Shown: one piece after another, positions 8,318 through 21,901 of the stretch
Position numbering within the stretch: the stretch's first letter is position 1
Layout of the letters: each line of letters opens with the position of its first letter
Source of the DNA: Candidatus Eisenbacteria bacterium
GTDB lineage: Bacteria > Eisenbacteria > RBG-16-71-46 > SZUA-252
Assembly (NCBI GenBank): GCA_005893305.1
Contig: VBOZ01000034.1
Span: 13,858-48,516, forward strand
Direction of reading: 5' to 3'
Length of the DNA stretch: 34,659 nt
The notes under the pieces: generated by a model
What the model was told of the DNA's origin: nothing
Databases searched by the model: none
Seen by the model: the letters and a program-made list of their open reading frames with translations, nothing else
Made by a program: the position numbers and the translations under genes

Positions 8318-9253
8318 GTGTTCGCCGAGGACCTGCTCCGCGACGTGAGGCGCGCGGGCTTCGCGCCCACCGCGATCGCGACGTACGTGCGGAGGATCGG
8401 CGCCCGCGCCGTGGGCCGGCTGCCCCGGAACGTGGAGCTCGTCCGCTCGGTCGCCGCGACCGCCCTGGTCCTCTTCGCGATCCAATTCTGCGGCGCGCTC
8501 CTCCTCTCGTGGGCGTTCGGCAGGAGGACCGGCGTCTCGTACCTGATCTCCTCGAGCGCGGTCCTGCTCTTTGTTTCGTTCTGGATCCTGACCCATCTCG
8601 GGCTGATGCACGCGACGCGGGACGACCGGCCGATGCGCCGGATTCCGTTCCCGGTGGCGCTGACCATGCTCCGGTTGGTGTCGATTCCGGCGATCGTGCT
8701 CTTGATCCGCGACGGCGCCTGGCCCGTCGTCGTGTGGCTCTACGCCGCGAGCGCCTCGACGGACGTCATCGACGGCGTGATGGCGCGCGCGTTCGGATCG
8801 GAGTCCCGAATCGGATCGGTCCTCGACCCGCTCGTCGACATCGCCTTCAACTCGTCGGTCTTCGTCGCGCTCGCCTCCGCGCGCGAGCTCCCGTGGTGGG
8901 TCGCGGGGCTGATGCTCGGCCGCTACGCGCTGCTCGTCGCCGGCACGTTCTATCTCTACGTCTTCCGCGGCCCGGTACGCATCCAGCCGACCGCGTTCGG
9001 AAAACTGACGGGCGTGCTGACGACGGTGCTGCTCGGGCTCCTCCTCCTCGGGCTCGCGTCCTGGAGTGACGCGACGCGGGGCCGCCTGAAGGAGGTCTTC
9101 GACGTGGGCTTGGGGGTTCTGGCGTTCGCCACCATCATCCAGGTCGTCTTCATCGGGCTCGCGAACCAGAAGGCGCTCGAGCGGGAGCCGGCCGCGGAGG
9201 AAGCGCCCCGAGCCGGTAAGGTCGTCGGGGACGTGCGCTGGCCAAGAGGGTAA
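8318..9253 (+). CDS. CDP-alcohol phosphatidyltransferase family membrane protein
   Basis: Carries the complete family signature D-x2-DG-x2-AR-x8-G-x3-D-x3-D: Asp149, Asp152-Gly153, Ala156-Arg157, Gly166, Asp170 and Asp174. These enzymes swap CMP of a CDP-alcohol for another alcohol to make phospholipid headgroups in the inner membrane. The 311 residues contain several hydrophobic helices. The length exceeds the usual ~180-200 because of an extra N-terminal segment (~residues 1-110) with two hydrophobic stretches and a short hydrophilic C-terminal tail. The headgroup (glycerol phosphate, inositol, serine) cannot be decided. The GTG start lies 3 bases after the cytochrome stop, with no clear ribosome site, so translation probably depends on coupling. 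It is the last gene of the run that starts at the asparaginase. Confidence 0.87.
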   Translation: MFAEDLLRDVRRAGFAPTAIATYVRRIGARAVGRLPRNVELVRSVAATALVLFAIQFCGALLLSWAFGRRTGVSYLISSSAVLLFVSFWILTHLGLMHATRDDRPMRRIPFPVALTMLRLVSIPAIVLLIRDGAWPVVVWLYAASASTDVIDGVMARAFGSESRIGSVLDPLVDIAFNSSVFVALASARELPWWVAGLMLGRYALLVAGTFYLYVFRGPVRIQPTAFGKLTGVLTTVLLGLLLLGLASWSDATRGRLKEVFDVGLGVLAFATIIQVVFIGLANQKALEREPAAEEAPRAGKVVGDVRWPRG

Positions 9254-9325: not shown

Positions 9326-9344
9326 GCATTGCATCCTGCAATGC
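9326..9344. promoter_or_regulatory. Perfect palindrome upstream of the sigma-54 promoter (candidate activator site)
   Basis: GCATTGCA-TCC-TGCAATGC: two perfect 8-base arms around 3 bases. It lies about 155 bases upstream of the predicted transcription start, the usual place for enhancer-binding activators of sigma-54 promoters. It could instead be a weak hairpin ending the phosphatidyltransferase transcript, but no T run follows. Confidence 0.45.
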
Positions 9345-9390: not shown

Positions 9391-9402
9391 GCTTGCAAGC
9401 AA
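9391..9402. promoter_or_regulatory. Second palindrome with TTGCA/TGCAA half-sites
   Basis: GCTTGCAAGC (9391-9400) is a perfect 10-base palindrome; TTGC-AA-GCAA (9393-9402) overlaps it. It shares the TTGCA/TGCAA core with the palindrome at 9326-9344 and lies about 90 bases upstream of the predicted start. Two related sites suggest a dimeric regulator; which one is unknown. Confidence 0.35.
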
Positions 9403-9456: not shown

Positions 9457-9472
9457 TGGCATGTCTCTTGCG
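9457..9472 (+). promoter_or_regulatory. Sigma-54 (-24/-12) promoter of the giant surface-protein operon
   Basis: TGGCATG-TCTC-TTGC (9457-9471) differs from the sigma-54 consensus TGGCACG-N4-TTGC at one base and has exact GG/GC spacing. Transcription would start near 9483, leaving a leader of about 57 bases before ATG 9540. No comparably good -35/-10 pair was noticed in the gap. Confidence 0.6.
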
Positions 9473-9539
9473 CTCCGGAGCACCGGTAAATCCCTGGGGC
9501 ACAACGATCGACCCTCTTTCACGGAGCTGATTCCTGCTG

Positions 9540-12500
9540 ATGCGGCTCACGGCGGGCCTCGTGTTCGCTCGATTCTGTCGACACCGCTCGGGCGTTGCTT
9601 GCCTCGTCGCGGCCGCGTTGGGCCTCGCCTTCTCTTCGGCCCCCGCGATCGCGGGCCCGGGAAGCGGGACCGCCACGATCGCGGGATCGTCGGCGGTGGT
9701 GGCGGGCGCGAGCGGCACCTGGGCGATCACCTACGTCGCGGCCGAGAACTTCGGCGCGCTGTTAGGCGGCCAGATCACGATCGAGATCCCGTCCGGATGG
9801 ACGGCCCCTCAATCGAGCGATTCCAGCTCCGCCGGCTATGTCCGGCCGGAGCCGCCCGACCATGTCACCCTGCTCTCCACGTCGGGCCAGACCATCACGG
9901 TCCAGCTGGGCGCCCTGCCGGCGACGCCGTTCCTGGCGGGCGACTCGGTCACCGTGGTCTACGGCTGGGGCGGAGGCGCCGCCGCGGCCGTGGCCGACAG
10001 CGTGGCGCCTGCCACCGCGACGTTCACCGTCACCAGCGACCCGCTTCAATCGGGCTCTCCGGCGCCGATCGCGTCGTCGCCGACGCTCGCGGTGGCTCCC
10101 GATTCCGTGACTCACGTGCGCGTGGTCGATCCCGCGATGACTCCCGTCGGGGTCTTCACGCGGAGCGCCGACGAGGACACGACCCGCCTCCTTCTCCTCG
10201 GCTACGACCGCTTCGATAACCCGGCGCGCCTCGTCACGGGCGTCTGGACCGTGACCGGTGGCATCGGGACCGCGTCACCCGCCACCGGAACCGGAACGGT
10301 CCTCACGCTGACCGGCGCCGCGACGGGCTATGCGGTGGGGGACAGCGGCGTATGGGCCGACTCGACCGGGCTCATCACCGTGACGCACGGCGCGTACGCC
10401 GGGCTCCTCATGAACGCCGACGTCATCGCGACCGCGGGGGCGCCGCTCGGCGGGAATGTGACCGCGGTCGACGCCGACGGGAACGGGATCACGACCGGCC
10501 CCGGCTCGAGCGCGTCGATTCTCTTCGCTGCGTACGCCGACTCCTTGGGCGGAGCCGCGGCGGACCCGAATTTCGTCTCGTCGGCCGCGACCCTCTCCGG
10601 CGGCACGTGGAACTCCACCTTGACGGCGCGCCGCGCGGGGACGTTCTGGCTCGCCGCGCGCGACACGACCGCGGGGTTCGAGACCTCGCCCCGCCGGCGG
10701 ATCGACGTCGCGCCGGCCGCGGCCGACCACATCACGGCCCGCCCCGACACGCTCCATCTCGTCGCGGGCGTCATGGACACCGTGACGGTCCTCGTCTTCG
10801 ACCTCTACGGAAACCGCGCGCCCGTGCCGGCGAACGAGACGCTGACGCTCTGGACCGACCGCATCGTCGGACGCTTCTACGATTCGTTCGGCTCGATCGT
10901 CTACGAGGGCATCCTCGCCGCGGGGGCCGACTCGGTCGACTTCCGGTACCGGGACACGCAGGCGGGCGCGGGGGTCGGCCGCCTCCGGGCCATCGACGCG
11001 AACGGCTCGGGCCCCTCGCTCGGCGCCGCGGCCGCGAGCGTCGTCACCTCGCCGAACGTGCCTCTGGGATTCTTCACGGTCCAGGCCGCGCCGGACACCC
11101 TAGTCGCGGACGGCGTCGACTCCTCCCTTGTGACCTCGGAGGCCGTGCGCGACGGGTACGGAAACGTGGTCGCTGCGGGCGAGCGGTTCACCGCGTTCGG
11201 CACGCTCGTGGCGCCGATCACGGACGTCGATCCCGGCACTCCGGGCGCGCAGTGGGTCGCGGCCGCGGACGGCACGGTGAGCGGCTGGGTGGGCGCCGGG
11301 CTCGTGAAGGGCGCGGGCCTCGACTCGATCGCGTCCGAGCGCGGCGGCGCGAACGGCAAGGTCGCGATCCGGCTGATCGCCGGCGCTCCGGCGGGCGCGA
11401 TCGCGCTGGTCGCCTCTCCCGACTCGCTCGCGGCCGACAGCGTGGCGACCCGCGCCCTGGGCGCGGCCGGGCTCCACGACGCGAACGGGAGCGCGGTCGA
11501 GAACGGCGAGCCGTTCACGGTTTCGACGACCCTCGGCTCGATCGCGTCGCCCGATCAGGATGGGGCGACCCCGGGGATCCAGGTCCGCGCCTCGGGCGGA
11601 GCGATCTCGTTCACGCTCTTCGGCGGCGACTCGATCGGGACCGCGACCGTTTCCGCCGCTTCCGCGCGGGGGACCGCGGCGGGGAGCGTCAACGTCCGCC
11701 TCGTCCCGGGCGCTACGAGCGCGGCCAAGTCCTCGGTGGCCGCGACGACGCCCGCGCCGGTCGGTGGCGTCGGCAGCACGGTCGCCGTCACGCTCCACGA
11801 TTCGCAGGGCCATCCGATCGCGGGCGTTCCGTCCGACTCGATCTCGGTCGGCGTCTCCGGCGTCTCGGCGACCGTCACGCCGCAGGGCGCCTCGACCGAC
11901 GGTGCGGGGCTGATCGAGCTCCGCGCCACCGCGACGGTCGCGGCGCCCGGCACCGTCTCCGTGACCGTGCGCGGCGTGACGCTCGCCGATTCGCCCACGA
12001 TCGTCTTCCAGCCGGGGCCGCTCGACCACTACGCGCTTGCGGGACCGGCGGGGCCGTTGACCGCGGGCACCGCGGACGCGCTCCAGGTCGGCGCCCGCGA
12101 TTCCTTCAACAACTCGATCCCGGGCCTCTCGGGCGTCGTCCTCCGTCCCACCGTGCTCGGCGGCGGCGCGACCGTGCCCGACTCGGCCACGATCGCCGGC
12201 GGTCTCGCCGCGGTCCCGTTCACGCCGACGGCGGCCGCGCCGCTCACGATCCAGGTGCGGGACGACGCGTCCCGAACGGTCACCTACGGGCCGGTTCCGG
12301 TCACGCCGGGTCCGTCCTTCCGCGTGATCGCGGTCGCGCCCTCGGCCGACACCCTCGCCGCGGGCGACTCGGTCGCGGTTCGCGCGCGGCTCTTCGACGC
12401 GTGGGGGAACACGGTGGCGGGCGGCCAGGTCGTAGCCTCGGTCGTGGCCGGAGGGGGAACCGTCGCGCCCGCGGCCGACGCGGCCGACGCCTCTGGATTT

Positions 12501-15500
12501 GCCGACTTCATGCTTCACGCCGGCTCCACGCTGGGCACGCTCGGGCTTCGATTCCTCGCGGCGGGAAGCGCGGCCGAGGACTCGGTCCGCGCCGACACGC
12601 TTCAAGTCACCGTGATCCCGGCGGGGGCCGTCTCGCTCCGCGTCCTCCCCGACTCGCTCGGCTGGATCGCGGGCGCCCCGGTGCGCGTGCGGGTGGAGCC
12701 GCTCGACGCGTTCGGGAACGTCGTGCTCGCCGACACCGCCACGATCGTAATGCGCCCCAGCGGCGCGCTCCGGTGGGCGCCGGCGTTCGGCGCGCTCTCG
12801 GGCGGCGCGTTCGTGACGTTCGCGAGCGATACGATCGCGGAGTCGGTCTCGCTCGCCGCGGACCGCGTGGGCGGGGGCACGGGGAGCGCGGGCCCGGCCG
12901 TCGTGGCGCCGGCCGCGGCGGCTTCGGTCGCCATCGCCTCGGGGGACGGTCAGACCGCGATCGTCGCCCGCGAGGTCGCGTCGCCCCTTCGAGTCCGCGT
13001 GCGCGACGCGTACGGAAACCTGACCCCGGGCGCCTCGATCGTCTTTGGGGTCGCCGCGGGGAACGGATCCGTGGACGCGATTCGGGGAGGCGCGGCCGAT
13101 TCCGTCGGGGTGAGCGACGGGTCCGCGGTGGCGGCATGCGAGGTCGCGCGTCTCGGGACGGTCGCCGGCGTGGGGAGCGACGCGTTCCGCGCCCGGCTCC
13201 TCATCGCCCCCGCGGCGCAGGTGCTCTTCACCGCCAGCGCGAGCCCGGACACGGCGGCCTCGCTCTCGCTCTCGCCACCGTCGCTCTCGCTCGCCGCGGG
13301 CGGCGTGGCGAACGTCACCGCGACGGCGCGCGACCTCTTCGGAAATCTCGCGCCCGGCGCAGCCGTTACGTTCTACGTCGGCGCCCCTTCCGCGGGCACG
13401 CTCGAGTCGCTTGGGTCGACGTCGGGCGGAAGCGGCTCGCAGAGCGGCACGACCGGGGGCGCGGGCGCGCTCGCCGTTCGATACCGCGCGCCCGCCACGA
13501 CACCCGCCGCCGACTCGATCTTCGCCCGCGGCGCGTCGATCGCCCCGGTCGGCATCCGCGCGACCGTCGGCGCGGCCACGACGGCGTCGCTCCAAGTATT
13601 GCCCGATTCGCTCGGATGGATCGCCGGCGACCCGGTGCGGGTGCGGGTGCGCGCGATCGACGCGTTCGGGAATCCGGTTCCGGCCGACACCGCGACGGTC
13701 GGTCTGTCATCGGGCGGGAGCGCGACCTTCACGCCCGCGTTCGGCGCGATGACGGCCGGCGAGTTCGTGACCTTCGCGCGCGACACGCTCGCGGAGTCCG
13801 TCCCGAGCCTCGATGCCTCCCGGGTGGGTGGAGGGACCGGCAGCGCGGGTCCCGTGACGGTGCGGCCGGCGTCGCCCGCGGGCGCGATCGCGATCGCCGC
13901 ACCGCGCGACACCCTGACCGCCGATGGCCGGAGCTCCGTGACGGTGGCGCTTGGGCCGGTCCGCGACGCGTTCGGAAACTTAGTAACGACGGGCTCGCTC
14001 GTTCTCGTGAGCGCTACCGCCGCGTCGCTCCTGGCGCCGGATGCCTCTCCGCTCCCGGGGCTCGATCTGGCGACCGCGTCCGACGGCCGCGCGTCGCTGG
14101 TCCTGACCGCCCCGGCCTCGGCGGGGGCCGACACGCTCCGCGCGTGGACGCGGGTGGGGGCCGCCGCCGGGCAGCACGCGTTCGTCTACGAGCCGCCGCC
14201 GTCCCTCGCCTACACGCCGGGCACGATCGCGCCGCAGGTCGTCGTTCCAGGATCGACGTACTCATTCCGCGTGCGCGTGACCAACACGGGGACCGGGACG
14301 ATCCAAATCGGGACGGGGACGACGATCTCGTTCGGAGCGGGGGCGATGGCGTACACCGCCGCGCTCGCCGCGCCGGTCCCGCTGGTCGCGGGGCAGTCCG
14401 ATACGCTCCGGTTCGCCGCGGGCGGGGTCTCATCGATGCTGACGCCGGGGACCTACGCCCCCGCGCTCCGCGCGGTCGGGACCGACGGGACGGGCGACGC
14501 GTTCGACTTCTACCTGAGCCTCGCGGGCGGTCAGGTCCACGCAGCGGGGGTGAGCGCCGCCGGGGTCAGCGCCTCGCCGTCCCCGGTGCCGCTCGGCTAC
14601 GGCGCCCTGGCCCTGGTCTTCGACGTCACGAACCCCACGACCCTCGCGGCGACAATCGACGCGGCGAGCCTTGGCTACACGATCGGCGCGTTCACCACGG
14701 TCGGCGTGGCGCCGTCGCTCCCGGCCGCGCTCCCCGCGGGGGGAACGACGCGCCTCACGGTCACGGTGAGCGTCCCGCCGAGCGGGATCCCCGACGGCAC
14801 CGTCGTTGGCGCCACCCTCACCGCGACCGCCGGCTTCGGCGGGTCCTCGGTCGTCGGGTCGAACCTGACGCGGCTCTCCTTCCAGGTCCAGTCCGCGGCC
14901 CGCATCGTCGCGACGACGGGTGTCGCGCTCCCCTCGCGCTATCTTCGCGCGCGGACGTTCGGTCCCACCGTGCGCGTAAGCAATACGGGTACCTCGACAG
15001 TCACGCTCGCGCGCGGCACGACGCGCCTCGTGCTCGAGCACCCGGGCGGAGACCTCCTCTCGACCGGGCTTAACGCCGCGACGGCGGTCCTCGGGAGCGA
15101 CTCCGCGTCGCTCGTCTTCGACTCGCTCGCGGTGCCCGCTTCCGTCGCGCGCGGGCGCTACGCCGCGCGGCTCTATCTGAACGGCACGGAATCGGGACAG
15201 GCCTTCGCCGACACGATCCCGCTCGATCCCGACAGCGTCTCGGTGCTCGAGCCGCCGCTTCTCTCCGTGGTCGGACCGCTCTCGCCCGATTCCGTGAGCG
15301 CGGGGCAGACGCGCCCGCTTCGACTTCGCCTCGCGAACGGCGGCGACGTGGCCTTCGACCTGGATCCCGGGACGATGCTCCGGCTGGGCTCGCCGCTCTT
15401 CACCGATCTCTCGCTCGGCGTGGCGGCGGCGCTTGGGCCCGGCGCGGCGATCGATCTCGACTTCGCCGGCGCGCCGCTCGGGTCGCCGCTCTCGCCGGGG

Positions 15501-16733
15501 AGCGCCGCGGCCACGCTCGAGGCGCGCGGAACCGAGGACGGCCGCTTCCGCGAGGAGGCGATCGCCGCGGGCCTGCTCGAGGCGCGTCCGCCGGCCGCGA
15601 TCGCGTTCGTCGCGGGCTCGACCGTTCCCGACACCGTTCGCGCGGGGCAGTCGTACGACCTCTCGGTCGCGGTGCGGAACAGCGGGGGCTCCCCGATCAC
15701 GCTCGATCCCGCGTCATCGCGAATCCTGCTTACGGACGGTGTCGAGCAGGTGGTCGCGTTGGGCTCGGGAGCGCCCGTGGCTCTCGGCCCTGGCGGCCAG
15801 GCGACGCTCTCCTTCCCCAGCGCCGCGTTCCCGGCCGCGCTCGCGAGCCAGCCGTACCCCGTGACGCTCTTCCTCTACGGGAGCGAGTGGGGCCAGGCGG
15901 AGAGCACGCAGGTCGCGTCGCCCCAATCCGAGATTCTGGTGATCGAGCCGGCGGCCGCGGTCCAGATCCGCCCCGTGGCTGCCGCCGCGCCGATCCAGGC
16001 AGCCGCCGGCATGGCCTCGGTACGGACCTGGGGGCTCGAGCTCATGGCGCTTGTTCCTCCCGGCGGCGTCACCGCCGTCCACCTGACGACGCTCCGGCTC
16101 ACGGTGCTCACCGACGGGAGCGCCGCCGGCGCCCCTTCGGCTGCTCTCGGCACGATCGCGGTCCGCTCGACGACGGGCGCGCTCCTCGCGCAATCGGCCG
16201 TCGGGGGCGCCAATCCGGTTACGCTCACGCTCTCCACGCCCCTCGCGATTACCGCGGGGGCCGAGTCGCTCTACGTGGAGGTCGGGATCGCCGGCTCGGG
16301 CGCGGCCCGCGCGGTGGCGCTCCGCGTCGCGGCGGACACCGACGTTCTGGTGCTGGAGGACCTGACGGCGACCCCCGTGCCGGTGCGCGGGGGAGGCGGG
16401 GTCGCGTTCTCGCCGCTCACGTCACCGACGCTCACGCTCTTCGATCGGGCGCACGGCTACCCGAATCCGTTTCGCGCGGGTCGGGAAGACGTGCGTCTCT
16501 CCTACCTCCTGACCCAGGACGGCGCGGTGCGCGTGAAGATCTACACGCTCCTCGGCGACCTCGTGCGGGAGATCGCGCTCGCCGCGGGTGCTACAGGGGG
16601 CACGCGGGGGCTGAACGAGGTCCCGTGGGACGGGCGGAACGGGAAGGGCGAGCTGGTGCGGCCCGGCCTCTACGTCGCGCGGATCGAGGGCTCCGGCGCG
16701 AGCGAGCAGATCAAGGTGGGGGTGCTCCGATGA
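9540..16733 (+). CDS. Giant (2397-residue) exported surface protein with many Ig-like repeats and a FlgD-like C-terminal domain
   Basis: An uninterrupted 2397-residue frame. The N-terminus has an Arg/His-rich stretch, a hydrophobic core and AIA-G (cleavage after about residue 38), a Sec signal peptide. The mature protein is rich in Ala, Gly, Thr, Val and Ser and has almost no Cys. Residues ~40-1550 look like successive beta-sandwich domains of invasin/Big type, with recurring phrases such as RDxFGN and ADSVxxA. Residues ~1550-2140 form about five units of ~115 residues (see repeat entries). Residues 2307-2397 form a FlgD-like sorting domain, from YPNPFRAG through VRVKIYTLLGDLVREI to PGLYVARIEGSG. 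No enzyme motif was seen, so a structural or adhesive role outside the cell is inferred. ATG 9540 has GGAG about 13 bases upstream. Its stop overlaps the barrel gene (ATGA). Confidence 0.88.
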   Translation: MRLTAGLVFARFCRHRSGVACLVAAALGLAFSSAPAIAGPGSGTATIAGSSAVVAGASGTWAITYVAAENFGALLGGQITIEIPSGWTAPQSSDSSSAGYVRPEPPDHVTLLSTSGQTITVQLGALPATPFLAGDSVTVVYGWGGGAAAAVADSVAPATATFTVTSDPLQSGSPAPIASSPTLAVAPDSVTHVRVVDPAMTPVGVFTRSADEDTTRLLLLGYDRFDNPARLVTGVWTVTGGIGTASPATGTGTVLTLTGAATGYAVGDSGVWADSTGLITVTHGAYAGLLMNADVIATAGAPLGGNVTAVDADGNGITTGPGSSASILFAAYADSLGGAAADPNFVSSAATLSGGTWNSTLTARRAGTFWLAARDTTAGFETSPRRRIDVAPAAADHITARPDTLHLVAGVMDTVTVLVFDLYGNRAPVPANETLTLWTDRIVGRFYDSFGSIVYEGILAAGADSVDFRYRDTQAGAGVGRLRAIDANGSGPSLGAAAASVVTSPNVPLGFFTVQAAPDTLVADGVDSSLVTSEAVRDGYGNVVAAGERFTAFGTLVAPITDVDPGTPGAQWVAAADGTVSGWVGAGLVKGAGLDSIASERGGANGKVAIRLIAGAPAGAIALVASPDSLAADSVATRALGAAGLHDANGSAVENGEPFTVSTTLGSIASPDQDGATPGIQVRASGGAISFTLFGGDSIGTATVSAASARGTAAGSVNVRLVPGATSAAKSSVAATTPAPVGGVGSTVAVTLHDSQGHPIAGVPSDSISVGVSGVSATVTPQGASTDGAGLIELRATATVAAPGTVSVTVRGVTLADSPTIVFQPGPLDHYALAGPAGPLTAGTADALQVGARDSFNNSIPGLSGVVLRPTVLGGGATVPDSATIAGGLAAVPFTPTAAAPLTIQVRDDASRTVTYGPVPVTPGPSFRVIAVAPSADTLAAGDSVAVRARLFDAWGNTVAGGQVVASVVAGGGTVAPAADAADASGFADFMLHAGSTLGTLGLRFLAAGSAAEDSVRADTLQVTVIPAGAVSLRVLPDSLGWIAGAPVRVRVEPLDAFGNVVLADTATIVMRPSGALRWAPAFGALSGGAFVTFASDTIAESVSLAADRVGGGTGSAGPAVVAPAAAASVAIASGDGQTAIVAREVASPLRVRVRDAYGNLTPGASIVFGVAAGNGSVDAIRGGAADSVGVSDGSAVAACEVARLGTVAGVGSDAFRARLLIAPAAQVLFTASASPDTAASLSLSPPSLSLAAGGVANVTATARDLFGNLAPGAAVTFYVGAPSAGTLESLGSTSGGSGSQSGTTGGAGALAVRYRAPATTPAADSIFARGASIAPVGIRATVGAATTASLQVLPDSLGWIAGDPVRVRVRAIDAFGNPVPADTATVGLSSGGSATFTPAFGAMTAGEFVTFARDTLAESVPSLDASRVGGGTGSAGPVTVRPASPAGAIAIAAPRDTLTADGRSSVTVALGPVRDAFGNLVTTGSLVLVSATAASLLAPDASPLPGLDLATASDGRASLVLTAPASAGADTLRAWTRVGAAAGQHAFVYEPPPSLAYTPGTIAPQVVVPGSTYSFRVRVTNTGTGTIQIGTGTTISFGAGAMAYTAALAAPVPLVAGQSDTLRFAAGGVSSMLTPGTYAPALRAVGTDGTGDAFDFYLSLAGGQVHAAGVSAAGVSASPSPVPLGYGALALVFDVTNPTTLAATIDAASLGYTIGAFTTVGVAPSLPAALPAGGTTRLTVTVSVPPSGIPDGTVVGATLTATAGFGGSSVVGSNLTRLSFQVQSAARIVATTGVALPSRYLRARTFGPTVRVSNTGTSTVTLARGTTRLVLEHPGGDLLSTGLNAATAVLGSDSASLVFDSLAVPASVARGRYAARLYLNGTESGQAFADTIPLDPDSVSVLEPPLLSVVGPLSPDSVSAGQTRPLRLRLANGGDVAFDLDPGTMLRLGSPLFTDLSLGVAAALGPGAAIDLDFAGAPLGSPLSPGSAAATLEARGTEDGRFREEAIAAGLLEARPPAAIAFVAGSTVPDTVRAGQSYDLSVAVRNSGGSPITLDPASSRILLTDGVEQVVALGSGAPVALGPGGQATLSFPSAAFPAALASQPYPVTLFLYGSEWGQAESTQVASPQSEILVIEPAAAVQIRPVAAAAPIQAAAGMASVRTWGLELMALVPPGGVTAVHLTTLRLTVLTDGSAAGAPSAALGTIAVRSTTGALLAQSAVGGANPVTLTLSTPLAITAGAESLYVEVGIAGSGAARAVALRVAADTDVLVLEDLTATPVPVRGGGGVAFSPLTSPTLTLFDRAHGYPNPFRAGREDVRLSYLLTQDGAVRVKIYTLLGDLVREIALAAGATGGTRGLNEVPWDGRNGKGELVRPGLYVARIEGSGASEQIKVGVLR
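12631..12903 (+). repeat. Internal duplication, copy A, in the giant surface-protein gene
   Basis: Encodes about residues 1031-1122. It begins with LRVLPDSLGWIAG and ends with RVGGGTGSAGP. The same order of motifs returns about 950 bases downstream (copy B), with clear similarity at both DNA and protein level. Confidence 0.8.
13585..13863 (+). repeat. Internal duplication, copy B, in the giant surface-protein gene
   Basis: Encodes about residues 1349-1442. It begins LQVLPDSLGWIAGDPVRVRV, continues through DAFGNPVPADTATV and ends RVGGGTGSAGP. It matches copy A at 12631-12903 throughout, with scattered changes, indicating an older segmental duplication rather than a recent one. Confidence 0.8.
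14191..15950 (+). repeat. About five tandem ~115-residue Ig/CARDB-like units in the giant surface protein
   Basis: Units start near residues 1550, 1670, 1787, 1907 and 2020. Each runs: a strand with P-x-S-x-x-x-G, then V-R-V-x-N-x-G, then an acidic or Thr-rich turn, then L/G-P-G-x-x-x-x-L-x-F and a closing Y-x-x-x-L strand, often with G-T-E/D. The second unit is the most divergent. The pattern resembles CARDB-like domains that build stalks. The DNA copies have diverged, so this is seen at protein level. Confidence 0.65.
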
Positions 16734-18616
16734 AGGCGCTCCGCTCGGTCTCGCTCCTGCTGCTCCTCGTCGCTACCCAGGCGATCGGGCCCGCCGCCCA
16801 TGCGTACGCGCAGTCTTCGGGCGCCGCGGGAACGTCGAACCTGCTCGCGTCGCCCGGGAGCTGGCCGACCACGGGCGCCTTGAGCGGAACCACCGCGCTC
16901 GGCCTCGATCCCTCGGCGGTCTACTTGAACCCCGCGGGACTCGCGGACCAGGACGAGCGCACCTTCCTCGTTCACCATGGACTCCTGCAGTTCGACACCT
17001 CCTGGGATCTGGCCGCGGTCGCCTATCCGATCCCCGGACTCGGCGCCGCGGGGCTCGGCCTCGCGCGAATCGGCTCCTCCGGCATCGAGGCATACGACTC
17101 CGCGAACCAGCCCCTCGGCACGATCGGCTACAGCGAGACCTCGATCGCGGTGAGCGTGGCCCGGCGCGTCTACGGCCCCATCGGCGCCGGGATCTCGTTC
17201 AAGGTATTGAGCCAGTCGCTCGGCGCCGTATCGGCCGCCGCGCCCTCGATGGACCTGGGCGCCGTCTATCGTCCGGAGCTGCTCCGCGGCGGACAGGTCG
17301 GTTTCTCGGTCCAGAACGTCGTGGCCGGATCGCTCGATCTGGGCGGGGCGACGTCGAGCCTCTCCCGCTCCTTCCGCCTCGGGCTCGCGAGCCCCGAGTG
17401 GCGCTTCGGACGCCTCATGGCGGGGCGGGCCGTCGCCGACCTCGCGCGCGAAGGGGTCATGAAGACGCGGCTCGGCGTCGAGGCGACCCGGCTTGGGATC
17501 GGCTCCCTCCGCGTGGGGCTCGACCGCGGGCGTCCGCTCTTCGGATTCGGCATCAACTGGCGCCGGTACGGGCTGGACTTCGCCCTGGCGCAGGGGGAGA
17601 TCGAGGCCACCAAGCAGCTCGCGCTCCACGTCGCGTGGGGCGAGCCGCTGAGCCAGTACGAGGAGCGCCGCCGCGCCGAGTACGCGAGGGCCGCGGAGGA
17701 CTCGGTGCGGGCGCGCCGCGCGGGGCTCGTGGCCCGCGATCGCGCGAAGGCCGAGCAAGCGGAGTCGATCGGCGACTGGGAGCGCGCGCTTCTCCTCTGG
17801 GAGATCCTCGTTCGCGAGCGGCCCGACGACAAGACCTACGAAGCGCGCGCGGCGGCGGCCCGGGTCGAGATCCAGGCGACCGCGAAGCGGGAGGTCGAGG
17901 CGGAGAGCGGCCGGAGGGTCGCGTCCACGATCGCTTCCATGACGCGCGCGTCGCTTCGGCGCGGGGACGTCGAGGAGGCGACCTGGATCTGGCGCGGCTT
18001 CGCTCCTCCGGGACACCCACCCACGGGGGTCGCGCCCGAGAGCCTCGCGGCGGTCGAGGCCGAGCTCCTGGTCGCGCGTGAGCGCGCCGCGGGGCGCGCC
18101 GTCGCGCGCGCCGACTCGCTCCGGCTGGCGGGGCGGGTGTTCGACGCCGCCGAACAGGCGGCTCTCGCGCTCCGGCTGAAGCCCGACGACCCGCAGGCGC
18201 AGGCCGTCTGGGCCTCGCTCCAGGTCCTGGTCCACAAGAGCGCGGACACGGCGGCGACGCTGGGTAGGAAGCTCGAGACCCTGACCGCGGTGCACGAAGC
18301 GTCGCAGGCATTCAACGAGGGGCGGTACACGGACGCGCAGGTCGCCGTCCGCCGCGCGCTCGCGCTCGAGCCCTCGAACATGGAAGCGCGCGCCTGGCGC
18401 GACCGCATCGAGCGGCGGCTCTCGACGCCGAAGCCCGAGGTCGATGCCCGGATCAAGCAGCTCTACATCAAGGGGATGGAGGCCTTCTCCTCGGGCGACT
18501 ACCGCGAGGCGCTCAGGAACTGGGAGCAGATCCTCGTGCTCGACCCGCTCAACGAGAGCGCCCGTAGGAACGTGCTCGAAGCGCGCGATCGGATGAAGTC
18601 GGAGGCGAGGCGGTGA
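16730..18616 (+). CDS. PorV/PorQ-like outer-membrane barrel protein with C-terminal TPR domain
   Basis: 628 residues. A signal peptide (SVSLLLLLVATQAIG, end near AYA-Q) is followed by a PorV/PorQ (UPF0164)-type barrel at about residues 35-305, with the family motif AVYLNPAGLAD (Asn67-Pro68) and alternating amphipathic strands. Residues ~310-628 are helical and charged. They contain TPR-like pairs such as AFSSGDYREALRNWEQIL and YTDAQVAVRRALALEPSN, and probably face the periplasm. PorV-type barrels help deliver or hold proteins with C-terminal sorting domains on the surface, which fits its position directly after the giant protein that carries such a domain. The ATG overlaps the upstream stop and its own stop overlaps the next start (GTGA). 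The partner relationship is inferred. Confidence 0.83.
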   Translation: MKALRSVSLLLLLVATQAIGPAAHAYAQSSGAAGTSNLLASPGSWPTTGALSGTTALGLDPSAVYLNPAGLADQDERTFLVHHGLLQFDTSWDLAAVAYPIPGLGAAGLGLARIGSSGIEAYDSANQPLGTIGYSETSIAVSVARRVYGPIGAGISFKVLSQSLGAVSAAAPSMDLGAVYRPELLRGGQVGFSVQNVVAGSLDLGGATSSLSRSFRLGLASPEWRFGRLMAGRAVADLAREGVMKTRLGVEATRLGIGSLRVGLDRGRPLFGFGINWRRYGLDFALAQGEIEATKQLALHVAWGEPLSQYEERRRAEYARAAEDSVRARRAGLVARDRAKAEQAESIGDWERALLLWEILVRERPDDKTYEARAAAARVEIQATAKREVEAESGRRVASTIASMTRASLRRGDVEEATWIWRGFAPPGHPPTGVAPESLAAVEAELLVARERAAGRAVARADSLRLAGRVFDAAEQAALALRLKPDDPQAQAVWASLQVLVHKSADTAATLGRKLETLTAVHEASQAFNEGRYTDAQVAVRRALALEPSNMEARAWRDRIERRLSTPKPEVDARIKQLYIKGMEAFSSGDYREALRNWEQILVLDPLNESARRNVLEARDRMKSEARR

Positions 18617-21093
18617 AGCTCGCGAACCGCCCGATGGCCCCGCGCCGGTTCCACCTCCGCGTGGCCGCCGAGGAGCAGCACCTGGCCGAGATCCGCGACT
18701 TCCTCCAGGAAGTCGGCGAGAAGCTCCTCATCCCCGGCCGGGTCCTCGCGAACACCAAGCTGGCGGTCGACGAGGCGTGCACGAACATCGTGAAGCACGG
18801 CTATCGGGGGGTGGCCGGCTTCATCGAGGTCGTGGTGACCGGGAACGGACGCGAGTTCTCGATCGCGATCCACGACCAGGGAAAGAGCTTCGACCTCCGG
18901 AACGTCAAGAGCCCGGATCTCAAGATGTACGTCGAGACGAGGAAACGCGGCGGCCTCGGCGTCTTCCTGATGAACCAGCTCATGGACGAGGTGCGCTACC
19001 GCGCGGGCGACGACGGCAACGTTCTCACCATGTCGAAGCGGCTGGGACGCTCCCGCCGCCGGCGCCCCGGGAAGGATCAACCGCGCCGCACGCTTCGCTT
19101 CACCTACACGGTCCAGGCCTTTGGCGCGATCACGCTGATCGTCGCCCTGGCCTTCGGCGCGATCCACCTGCGGCAGATCGGCGGTCTGGAGGAGGAGGTG
19201 CTGGCCCAGGCGCGCGCCTCGGCCGCGAGCCTCGCGGGATCGGGCCTCGACGTCCTGTTGCGGAAGGAGCCGATGTCGGTGGAGCAGACCCTTCTGAATC
19301 AATCGATCCGCACGCTCCTTCGCTTCCGGCCCGAGTACGCGGCGGCCCGCGTGATCGACGCGGCGGGCCGGGTCTGGGGATCGGACCGATTCGAGGAGCT
19401 CTTCTCGACGCGGACGCTCCCGCAGGGCGCGCAGGCGGTCACGCCGGGAGCCCGACCGGGTGGCAGGCCGGGCCCGCCCGTCGCCATGGTCGAGCCCGCG
19501 AACGGAAAAACGCGCGAGGTCTATTATCCGATCCTCGAGCCGTCGGCAAGAACGCAGCGGGCGCTCGGCTGGATCCAGATCGTGGTGCGCGAATCGGCGA
19601 TCGCCGAGCGGATCAGCGGCGCGCGCATCGAGCTGGCGACGATCGCGCTCTTCACGCTCCTCCTCGGCTACATGCTCTCGGCCATCCTGATCACGATCTT
19701 CGTCCAGCCGATCCAGGCGCTCTCCGACAGCGTGCGGGCCATCGGAGAGGGCACGATGGTCGCCGACATCGGCGCGTCGGGGAACGACCAGATCGACGAC
19801 ATCGCGCGCGCGTTCAACGAGGTGACGGCCAAGTTCCGCGCCGCCCAGGGCCACCTGATGGAGCAGGAGCGGATGCAGCAGGAAATGCAGGTGGCGCAGG
19901 AAATCCAGCAGATGCTCCTCCCGCGCAAGGTGCCCGAGCTGGAAGGGTTCGAGCTCGGCTACCTCTACCGCGCCGCGAAGGAGGTGGGGGGCGATTACTT
20001 CGACTTCTTGACGGTCGACGAGCGCACGGTCGGCGTCGTGGTCGCGGACGTCTCGGGAAAGGGCGTCCCGGGCTCGCTGGTCATGACCATGATCCGCACC
20101 GCGCTCCGGATGGAAGCCCGCGGGAACCGGTCGGCGTCGGACGTGATGGCCAGGATGAACGCCTTCGTGACCGAGGACATGAAGAAGGGGATGTTCGTGA
20201 CCATGTTCTACGTCGTGCTGGATTCGGTGAACCGCGTGGTCACCTACGCGAGCGCCGGACACAACCCGATGATCCTCTACCGCGGGGAGGAGGACTCGAC
20301 CTACTTCCTGAAGCCGAAGGGGATCCCGGTCGGGATCAACGTGCCGGACGAGGAATTGTTCCGGAAGACGATCAGCGTGGAGAAGCTGTCGCTTCGCGAG
20401 GGGGACATGCTCGTGATCTACACCGACGGCATCACTGAGGCGATGAACCCCGATCGGGACCAGTTCGGCGAAGCGAGGCTCCTCTCCGCGATCAAGCGGT
20501 ACGGCCACATGACGTCGCAGGAGTTCGCCGAGGCGCTGAATCTCGAGATTCAGGAGTTTACGGGCGGCGCGCCGCAGAACGACGACATCACGCTCGTGGC
20601 CATCAAGGAGAAGGTGCCGGTCGAGGCGCGGCTCGAGGAGAACCGGCGCGAGCTCTTCCGGTTGATCGAGGAGGAGGGGATGCCGGTGGCCGAGGCGTGC
20701 GCCAAGCTCCAGGTCGCCTCCTCCACTTATTACAAGTACAAGCGCCGCGTGGAGGTCATGGGAGGGGAAGAGGGCCTGAAGCCGACCCGGCCCCAGGCGC
20801 CGCTGGCGCGAGCAAGCGTTGAGGAGGAGGCGGCGATCTTGGAGATCGTCCGGGCCGAGCCGTCGCTGGGGGCCAAGCGAGTCTGGGAGATCCTCAGGGC
20901 CACAAATCGCTGCCGCGCCGACCTTTCCGAGAGGGCGATTTACGAGATGTTTCGCAGGAAGGGCCTCAACACGAGGGAAAAAAGGCTCGAGTTCAGCCGC
21001 AACGGAACCGATAAACGAATGGCGAGGCTCGCTCGGGCATTGTCGGAGGGCCCGGCGCCGACCCCGACCGAGCAAGGAGGAGGGGAAGCATGA
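18613..21093 (+). CDS. Membrane partner-switch protein: RsbW-like kinase, HAMP, SpoIIE/PP2C phosphatase and transposase-type HTH tail
   Basis: 826 residues in order: (a) residues ~10-150, RsbW/SpoIIAB-like ATPase/kinase with DEACTNIVKHGY (Asn58), IHDQGKSFD and GGLGVFLMNQLMDEV; (b) TM1 ~163-183; (c) periplasmic sensor ~184-340; (d) TM2 ~341-363; (e) HAMP and coiled segment to ~435; (f) SpoIIE/RsbU phosphatase with GGDYFDF (Asp461), VADVSGKGVPGSLVM, SAGHNPM, YTDGITEAM and NDDITLV (Asp657-Asp658); (g) residues ~677-795, an HTH (PVAEACAKLQVASSTYYKYK) and a second helical unit (GAKRVWEIL, SERAIYEMFRRKGLNTREKR). Part g resembles the DNA-binding end of IS481/IS3 transposases; no DDE core follows. 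The kinase and phosphatase parts should both be cytoplasmic and would act in opposite ways on a STAS protein, here the next gene. GTG start with GGAGGC upstream. Confidence 0.88.
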   Translation: MKLANRPMAPRRFHLRVAAEEQHLAEIRDFLQEVGEKLLIPGRVLANTKLAVDEACTNIVKHGYRGVAGFIEVVVTGNGREFSIAIHDQGKSFDLRNVKSPDLKMYVETRKRGGLGVFLMNQLMDEVRYRAGDDGNVLTMSKRLGRSRRRRPGKDQPRRTLRFTYTVQAFGAITLIVALAFGAIHLRQIGGLEEEVLAQARASAASLAGSGLDVLLRKEPMSVEQTLLNQSIRTLLRFRPEYAAARVIDAAGRVWGSDRFEELFSTRTLPQGAQAVTPGARPGGRPGPPVAMVEPANGKTREVYYPILEPSARTQRALGWIQIVVRESAIAERISGARIELATIALFTLLLGYMLSAILITIFVQPIQALSDSVRAIGEGTMVADIGASGNDQIDDIARAFNEVTAKFRAAQGHLMEQERMQQEMQVAQEIQQMLLPRKVPELEGFELGYLYRAAKEVGGDYFDFLTVDERTVGVVVADVSGKGVPGSLVMTMIRTALRMEARGNRSASDVMARMNAFVTEDMKKGMFVTMFYVVLDSVNRVVTYASAGHNPMILYRGEEDSTYFLKPKGIPVGINVPDEELFRKTISVEKLSLREGDMLVIYTDGITEAMNPDRDQFGEARLLSAIKRYGHMTSQEFAEALNLEIQEFTGGAPQNDDITLVAIKEKVPVEARLEENRRELFRLIEEEGMPVAEACAKLQVASSTYYKYKRRVEVMGGEEGLKPTRPQAPLARASVEEEAAILEIVRAEPSLGAKRVWEILRATNRCRADLSERAIYEMFRRKGLNTREKRLEFSRNGTDKRMARLARALSEGPAPTPTEQGGGEA
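21076..21083 (+). promoter_or_regulatory. Strong ribosome binding site of the STAS gene
   Basis: GGAGGAGG, 6 bases before ATG 21090, inside the 3' end of the phosphatase gene. Together with the ATGA overlap it suggests the STAS protein is made efficiently by both reinitiation and direct entry. Confidence 0.6.
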
Positions 21094-21752
21094 AGGGAAT
21101 CGACGTTTACGTCGAGGAAGCAGCCCAGAACCGAGGCGTATCGGTGCTGCGAGTTTCGGGCTACGTCGATACGACGACCAGCCCCGACCTCGAGCGCAGG
21201 CTTCAGGCGCTTCTGCGCGACAAGCGCTTCCACATCGTGGTCGACCTTTCCGGCGTCGAGTACATCTCGAGCGCGGGGTGGGGGATCTTCATCAGCGAGA
21301 TCCGAGAGATCCGCGAGCAGGGCGGCGATCTGAAGCTCGCGGGGATGATCCCCGACGTCCGCGAGGTATTCGACCTCCTCGAATTCGAGAACATCCTGAA
21401 ATCCTACGCCGACGCCGATCTGGCCATCGCCTCGTTCGGCCAGATCACGCCCGCGCCCCAGGCGTCTTCGGCGAGCGCGGCCGATGCCTCCGGCTCCGCG
21501 CAGTCCGCGGCGAGCAAAGGCCCGCAGCGCTCCGAGACGGTCCTCTCCGACGAGGACCTGATCCGCGAGATCGCGCGGCAGCACCCCGAGTTCGGCCTCA
21601 TGCGCATCCAGAAGGAGCTTCGCCGGCCGGAGCGCGGGGGGCGCGACTTGAATCCGGTCCAGATCTACGTCCTCCTCCGCAAGCTCGACCTCGACACGCG
21701 CGAGCGGCGCGTGGCCCTCGCAAAGGAAAATCAAACTTCGACGCGGCGCTAA
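21090..21752 (+). CDS. STAS anti-anti-sigma factor with a transposase-type helix-turn-helix tail
   Basis: 220 residues. Residues 1-~112 form a STAS domain of SpoIIAA/RsbV type: VLRVSGYVDTTTSPDLE, then VVDLSGVEYISSAGWGIF with Ser60/Ser61 at the usual phosphorylation site, then LAGMIPDVREVFDLLEF. An Ala/Ser/Pro linker (~116-150) leads to a helical tail at ~153-211: LIREIARQHPEFG, RIQKELRRPERGG, PVQIYVLLRKLDLDTRERR. The tail aligns with residues ~737-795 of the preceding phosphatase (shared E-I-x-R, P-x-x-G, R-I/V, I-Y, L-x-TRE-x-R). It should be the substrate of the kinase and phosphatase parts of the upstream protein. The tail could bind DNA or pair with the matching tail. The STAS call is firm; the role of the tail is inferred. 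Confidence 0.9.
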   Translation: MKGIDVYVEEAAQNRGVSVLRVSGYVDTTTSPDLERRLQALLRDKRFHIVVDLSGVEYISSAGWGIFISEIREIREQGGDLKLAGMIPDVREVFDLLEFENILKSYADADLAIASFGQITPAPQASSASAADASGSAQSAASKGPQRSETVLSDEDLIREIARQHPEFGLMRIQKELRRPERGGRDLNPVQIYVLLRKLDLDTRERRVALAKENQTSTRR

Positions 21753-21770
21753 ATCAAATCCGCTTGACCG

Positions 21771-21821
21771 GCGGGGGAGCGCGCGCTTATCGTTCGGCGC
21801 ACGATCCCCCGCGATGCTTTT
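21771..21821 (+). terminator. Probable terminator of the surface-protein/partner-switch operon
   Basis: A GC-rich 8-bp stem (GCGGGGGA 21771-21778 with TCCCCCGC 21805-21812) encloses a 26-base loop that can pair further (GCGC with GCGC). TTTT at 21818-21821 follows five bases later. It starts 19 bases after the STAS stop. Confidence 0.5.
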
Positions 21822-21901
21822 CCGCCTTCCTCCGATCGCCCCGCCCCGAGTAGAGCTATTTTCGCGCAGGCAGAAACCGTGATTTCGGGGTACTTACGGC
21901 G

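Follow-up and report, generated by a model that had tools for sequence, protein, structure and literature searches.

What starts transcription of an operon that joins a giant secreted-looking protein to a SpoIIE/STAS partner switch? The operon lies in a 34,659-nt stretch of Candidatus Eisenbacteria DNA (the window). The initial annotation, made from the sequence alone, had placed a near-consensus sigma-54 promoter at 9457–9472, in front of the operon, and proposed control by an ATP-driven enhancer-binding activator; it called for a search of the genome for rpoN and enhancer-binding protein genes and for a comparison of the gap across relatives. The features that bear on the question are listed below.

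8318–9253: CDP-alcohol phosphatidyltransferase gene, in front of the gap
9326–9344 (no strand): candidate enhancer (UAS), perfect palindrome GCATTGCATCCTGCAATGC, i.e., GCATTGCA-TCC-TGCAATGC; centre at about -148 relative to the predicted start
9391–9400 (no strand): possible second activator or architectural site GCTTGCAAGC at about -90, with weaker evidence
9457–9471 (+): -24/-12 site TGGCATGTCTCTTGC with exact 7-4-4 layout, read from the sequence
9457–9463 (+): -24 element TGGCATG; TGGCA unvarying in 8/8 orthologous gaps
9468–9471 (+): -12 element TTGC, unvarying in 8/8 orthologous gaps
9483 (+): predicted transcription start, 12 nt past the C of the -12 element, from standard sigma-54 geometry
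9487–9505 (+): conserved block TAAATCCCTGGGGCACAAC just past the predicted start, from the family gap alignment; 5' leader or operator
9540–16733 (+): first gene, 2397 aa, with a signal-peptide-like N-terminus, Ig-like domains, and a C-terminal FlgD_ig-like stretch; orthologous, with order kept in relatives
16730–18616 (+): second gene, secreted-looking TPR protein; order kept in relatives
18613–21093 (+): third gene, partner-switch protein by domain content (HATPase_c_2, HAMP, SpoIIE phosphatase, HTH)
21090–21752 (+): fourth gene, partner-switch antagonist type by domain content (STAS and an HTH-like domain)

The promoter-bearing gap spans 286 bp, from the end of the phosphatidyltransferase gene (9253) to the start of the giant ORF (9540). 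The four genes of the operon overlap head to tail (e.g., the ATG of the second, at 16730, overlaps the stop of the giant gene), and therefore they are probably transcribed as one unit, from 9483 to about 21752. The 149-bp gap that follows (21753–21901), before a VWA-domain gene, contains a weak sigma-70-like match at 21764–21793. Hence, the VWA-domain gene may have its own promoter, and together with the genes downstream it may belong to a separate transcript.

The -24/-12 site and its conservation

The site at 9457–9471 combines the features by which sigma-54 promoters are recognized: GG and GC dinucleotides, TGGCAC-like and TTGC elements, and fixed spacing. Compared with TGGCACG-N4-TTGC, the sequence TGGCATG-TCTC-TTGC has a single mismatch: position 6 has T in place of C, still a pyrimidine. 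The initial annotation was thus correct about the motif, its spacing, and the single mismatch, but the site ends at 9471, base 9472 being merely the next G. Its argument from the motif match alone is insufficient: sites with at most one mismatch to TGGCACGN4TTGC number 53 in the 2.75-Mb genome vs. 57 for the reversed control pattern, so that the motif match by itself is at chance level genome-wide. A narrower pattern, TGGCAYGNNNYTTGC, which was picked after the site was seen, has five sites in the genome and none for the control.

What lifts the promoter reading far above chance is that orthologous gaps keep the site. In all eight readable orthologous gaps, the coding strand carries a -24/-12 site with one mismatch ahead of the giant gene; these are the gaps of the window's own genome, G001, G002, G004, G005, G006, and G007, as well as G019 from another family; the named relatives compared are Candidatus Eisenbacteria. 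Across the seven family genomes, conservation over 15 columns anchored on the site reaches 0.914 vs. 0.544 ± 0.053 at other positions of the gap (maximum 0.657), and the bases between the -24 and -12 elements vary more than TGGCA and TTGC do. The comparison that the initial annotation had called for therefore comes out in favor of its promoter, and the aligned gaps make the site a clear phylogenetic footprint. The order of the operon genes and the gene preceding them is kept in relatives; in G001 the giant gene is orthologous, but the gene preceding the gap differs within the stretch examined. Orthologs of the third (SpoIIE) gene are 67–79% identical within the family.

An alternative explanation is that the match arose by chance and has no function, the operon being read from another promoter. 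It agrees with the observation that one-mismatch sites are no commoner than matches to the reversed control, but at the level of sequence it is already contradicted by conservation, as the site is kept in every readable gap amid diverged surroundings. Besides, no sigma-70-like promoter was found within the 286-bp gap, and we give this explanation practically no credence. It is also very improbable that the conserved element is the site of some other protein, or a feature of an RNA leader, that merely resembles a -24/-12 site. A further block after 9487 is likewise conserved and unexplained, which would suit such an explanation; against it, the invariant positions are exactly those that sigma-54 needs (TGGCA, TTGC, and the fixed spacing), with the bases between the elements freer, rpoN co-occurs, and an Rfam search of the gap matched no family. 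In our assessment, the segment 9457–9471 is very likely a genuine sigma-54 (RpoN) promoter.

The block at 9487–9505 reads CTAAGTCCCTGGGACGCAA in close relatives and has no Rfam match. Interpretation of the TCCCTGGGA block as an RNA hairpin or a strict palindrome was rejected, since visual inspection shows that the arms are not preserved among relatives.

The pairing of a HATPase/SpoIIE/HTH protein with an upstream TPR gene is also conserved in Krumholzibacteriota, Zixibacteria, KSB1, and other FCB-type lineages (L094–L173), where resemblance to the giant gene upstream is mostly partial or confined to the C-terminus. The strict sigma-54 site was absent from the upstream stretches examined for distant SpoIIE relatives (Krumholzibacteria, Zixibacteria, KSB1, and others), and hence the sigma-54 wiring appears, from these sequences, to be restricted to the Eisenbacteria side.

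An upstream palindrome shared with pilus genes

The gene for sigma-54, rpoN, was found in the window's own genome and in 55 of the 59 genomes searched, including every family member except the draft genome G007. The own genome also encodes about 19 full-length sigma-54 activator domains, and several of these activators have Fis-type helices ending in similar TLYRK/TLWRK residues. Both kinds of genes that the initial annotation wanted sought are thus present. In G007 the promoter and the enhancer of the operon are kept, yet neither rpoN nor a close PilR was detected; this draft is 91% complete, and the two absences are probably assembly gaps.

The palindrome at 9326–9344 had not been part of the initial annotation. 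Its core, TTGC-N5-GCAA, is kept in the seven family gaps at about the same distance, with divergence in G001 and G002 (2 mismatches); in G019, with its short gap, no copy was detected upstream. The mismatches of the best palindromes summed over the seven giant-operon gaps amount to 8 vs. 26.3 ± 1.8 in dinucleotide shuffles (0/300 as low), and five other palindromes gave no signal of comparable size in the same shuffle test. Since the motif was first read from these very gaps, the fair test is provided by other loci. Within the own genome only, enhancer-like elements near sigma-54 sites show a small excess, 6 upstream vs. 3 downstream (control), and the case for the enhancer draws its strength from orthologs rather than from this genome alone. 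At the possible second site, TTGCAA at -88 to -90 occurs only in the window, G006, and G007.

Exact TTGCANNNTGCAA is found at only two sites in the whole genome. The other one, L174:1501-1513 (G000:C8:112264-112276), has a one-mismatch sigma-54 site about 175 bp upstream of it and an ORF that begins about 20 bp further on; it is possibly a leader or operator site.

The pilA locus served as such a test. In the own genome, a gene for a PilR-type activator (receiver, sigma-54 AAA+, and Fis-type HTH domains; G000:C8:194378-195757) is located directly upstream of pilA, and the pilR-pilA gaps contain conserved sigma-54 sites with TTGC-N5-GCAA elements upstream of them. Summed over 15 pilA gaps, the best palindromes have 25 mismatches vs. 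52.2 ± 2.7 in shuffles (0/300 as low). PilR orthologs are 87–92% identical in six family relatives, and the PilR gene adjoins the pilA enhancer across the class. A close PilR is present in G000, G001, G003–G006, and G008, and a more distant one in G013 and G019 (in two pieces in the latter); none close was found in the draft genomes G002 and G007. The giant operon has the same enhancer element as pilA beside pilR, as expected of a member of the PilR regulon, and in some genomes the element has diverged.

A blind search of the 59 genomes for the composite enhancer-spacer-promoter pattern TTGCN5GCAA-N94..124-TGGCAYN5TTGC yielded 9 matches vs. 1 for the reversed pattern used as a control. The matches are as follows.

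Giant operon, two matches: own genome and G004
pilA, two matches: G013 and G016
GspH/FimT-like pseudopilin gene: G016
pilM: G026
Response-regulator/GGDEF genes, three matches: G019, G013, and G009

No functional class beyond pilus genes, a c-di-GMP-type regulator, and the giant operon is represented among them. A one-mismatch sigma-54 site also lies in front of each of the following genes of the own genome: pilA, pilM, three MshEN/T2SSE ATPase genes, a gene for a GspH-type pseudopilin, and a CheW gene.

The GGDEF response-regulator genes of three relatives (L226:476-1435, L228:1691-2680, and L229:1713-2693) have the same enhancer-promoter module as pilA and may link c-di-GMP to pili. In the own genome, sigma-54-like sites are present at the MshEN-domain ATPase genes of the pili as well.

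Candidate activator and proposed mechanism

The promoter motif, its conservation, the presence of rpoN and activator genes, and the sharing of the enhancer element were all established computationally. The ATP-driven enhancer-binding activator invoked by the initial annotation is supported by rpoN, the AAA+ activator genes, and the conserved palindrome at about -148, i.e., by what a sigma-54 promoter activated from upstream would use. In the mechanism that we infer, with actual sigma-54 transcription, PilR binding, and co-expression with pili, sigma-54 polymerase would begin to transcribe the giant surface-protein/partner-switch operon near 9483. An enhancer-binding protein of the NtrC family would bind the palindrome about 148 bp upstream and spend ATP to open the polymerase. 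The response regulator of PilR type whose gene lies beside pilA is the most likely activator, because pilA, pilM, and a pseudopilin gene also have TTGC-N5-GCAA ahead of their sigma-54 promoters; on that view, expression of the giant operon would go along with that of type IV pili.

LuxO of Vibrio, for which a TTGCAW3TGCAA site upstream of sigma-54 promoters is documented (PMC11443567), shows that such an element can serve an NtrC-family protein; this makes TTGC-N5-GCAA plausible as an activator site. The arrangement resembles LuxO/sigma-54 at the Vibrio qrr genes in its NtrC-family activator and type of site. In contrast, the V. fluvialis LuxO sites described there fall at roughly -89 to -119 and control small RNAs, whereas here the site is at about -148, in front of a protein operon, and in a different phylum.

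The layout of the pilA locus matches that of the PilS-PilR/sigma-54 systems of Pseudomonas, Geobacter, and Myxococcus, with a sigma-54 pilA promoter directly downstream of a gene for a receiver/AAA+/Fis-type HTH PilR (for the pilA/pilR layout in Geobacter, see PMC2725144). It differs in the element, which is TTGC-N5-GCAA here, and in the additional target, an operon for a giant secreted protein and a SpoIIE/STAS partner switch. The hallmarks described for PilR of P. aeruginosa are TGT-N11-AGA and GTCT (PMC6058289), and for this reason PilR is an activator that we infer; provided that the promoter is real, we regard its role as likely.

A different enhancer-binding protein might instead act at the real sigma-54 promoter through a TTGC-N5-GCAA-like site, in which case the overlap with pilus promoters would reflect similar DNA-binding domains and no shared regulon. 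The abundance of full-length activators with similar helix ends speaks for this possibility, as does LuxO, a protein other than PilR that uses this kind of site (PMC11443567). On the other hand, it does not sit well with the narrow range of genes returned by the blind composite search or with the adjacency of PilR to the pilA enhancer throughout the class, and we consider it rather unlikely. Taken together, a real sigma-54 promoter, PilR-type activation through the upstream enhancer, and membership of the operon in the type IV pilus regulon are the probable interpretation.

Regulatory context and implications

Control of pili by sigma-54 and PilR, as well as control of surface functions by sigma-54, is already established, and PilR regulons are known to extend to surface genes beyond pilA (PMC6058289). 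In the scheme of sigma-54 as a controller of the bacterial exterior (Francke et al. 2011, PMC3162934), targets are likewise secreted or surface proteins, with a promoter type common to pilus genes; the present case does not differ in kind and is an instance in Candidatus Eisenbacteria. New are the target, the lineage, and a LuxO-like enhancer in a pilus setting. Our literature searches returned no papers that combine upstream activating sequences of PilR with sigma-54, and none that combine partner switching with sigma-54, SpoIIE, and STAS.

As the initial annotation proposed, sigma-54 control might form a second layer over the partner switch of the operon itself. More tentatively, one may picture the giant Ig-like secreted protein and the HTH-fused SpoIIE/STAS partner switch as part of a PilR pilus regulon with a LuxO-type enhancer, in which pili, a c-di-GMP-type regulator, and the partner switch are co-activated and the block at 9487–9505 may serve as a feedback operator for the HTH-bearing partner-switch proteins.

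The TTGC-N5-GCAA element is a candidate activator site for finding the remaining regulon in the class. In a lineage represented here solely by metagenome-assembled genomes, the prediction is that type IV pili and a conserved giant-secreted-protein/partner-switch operon are activated together; this hints at a role of the operon's products at the cell surface, alongside the pili.
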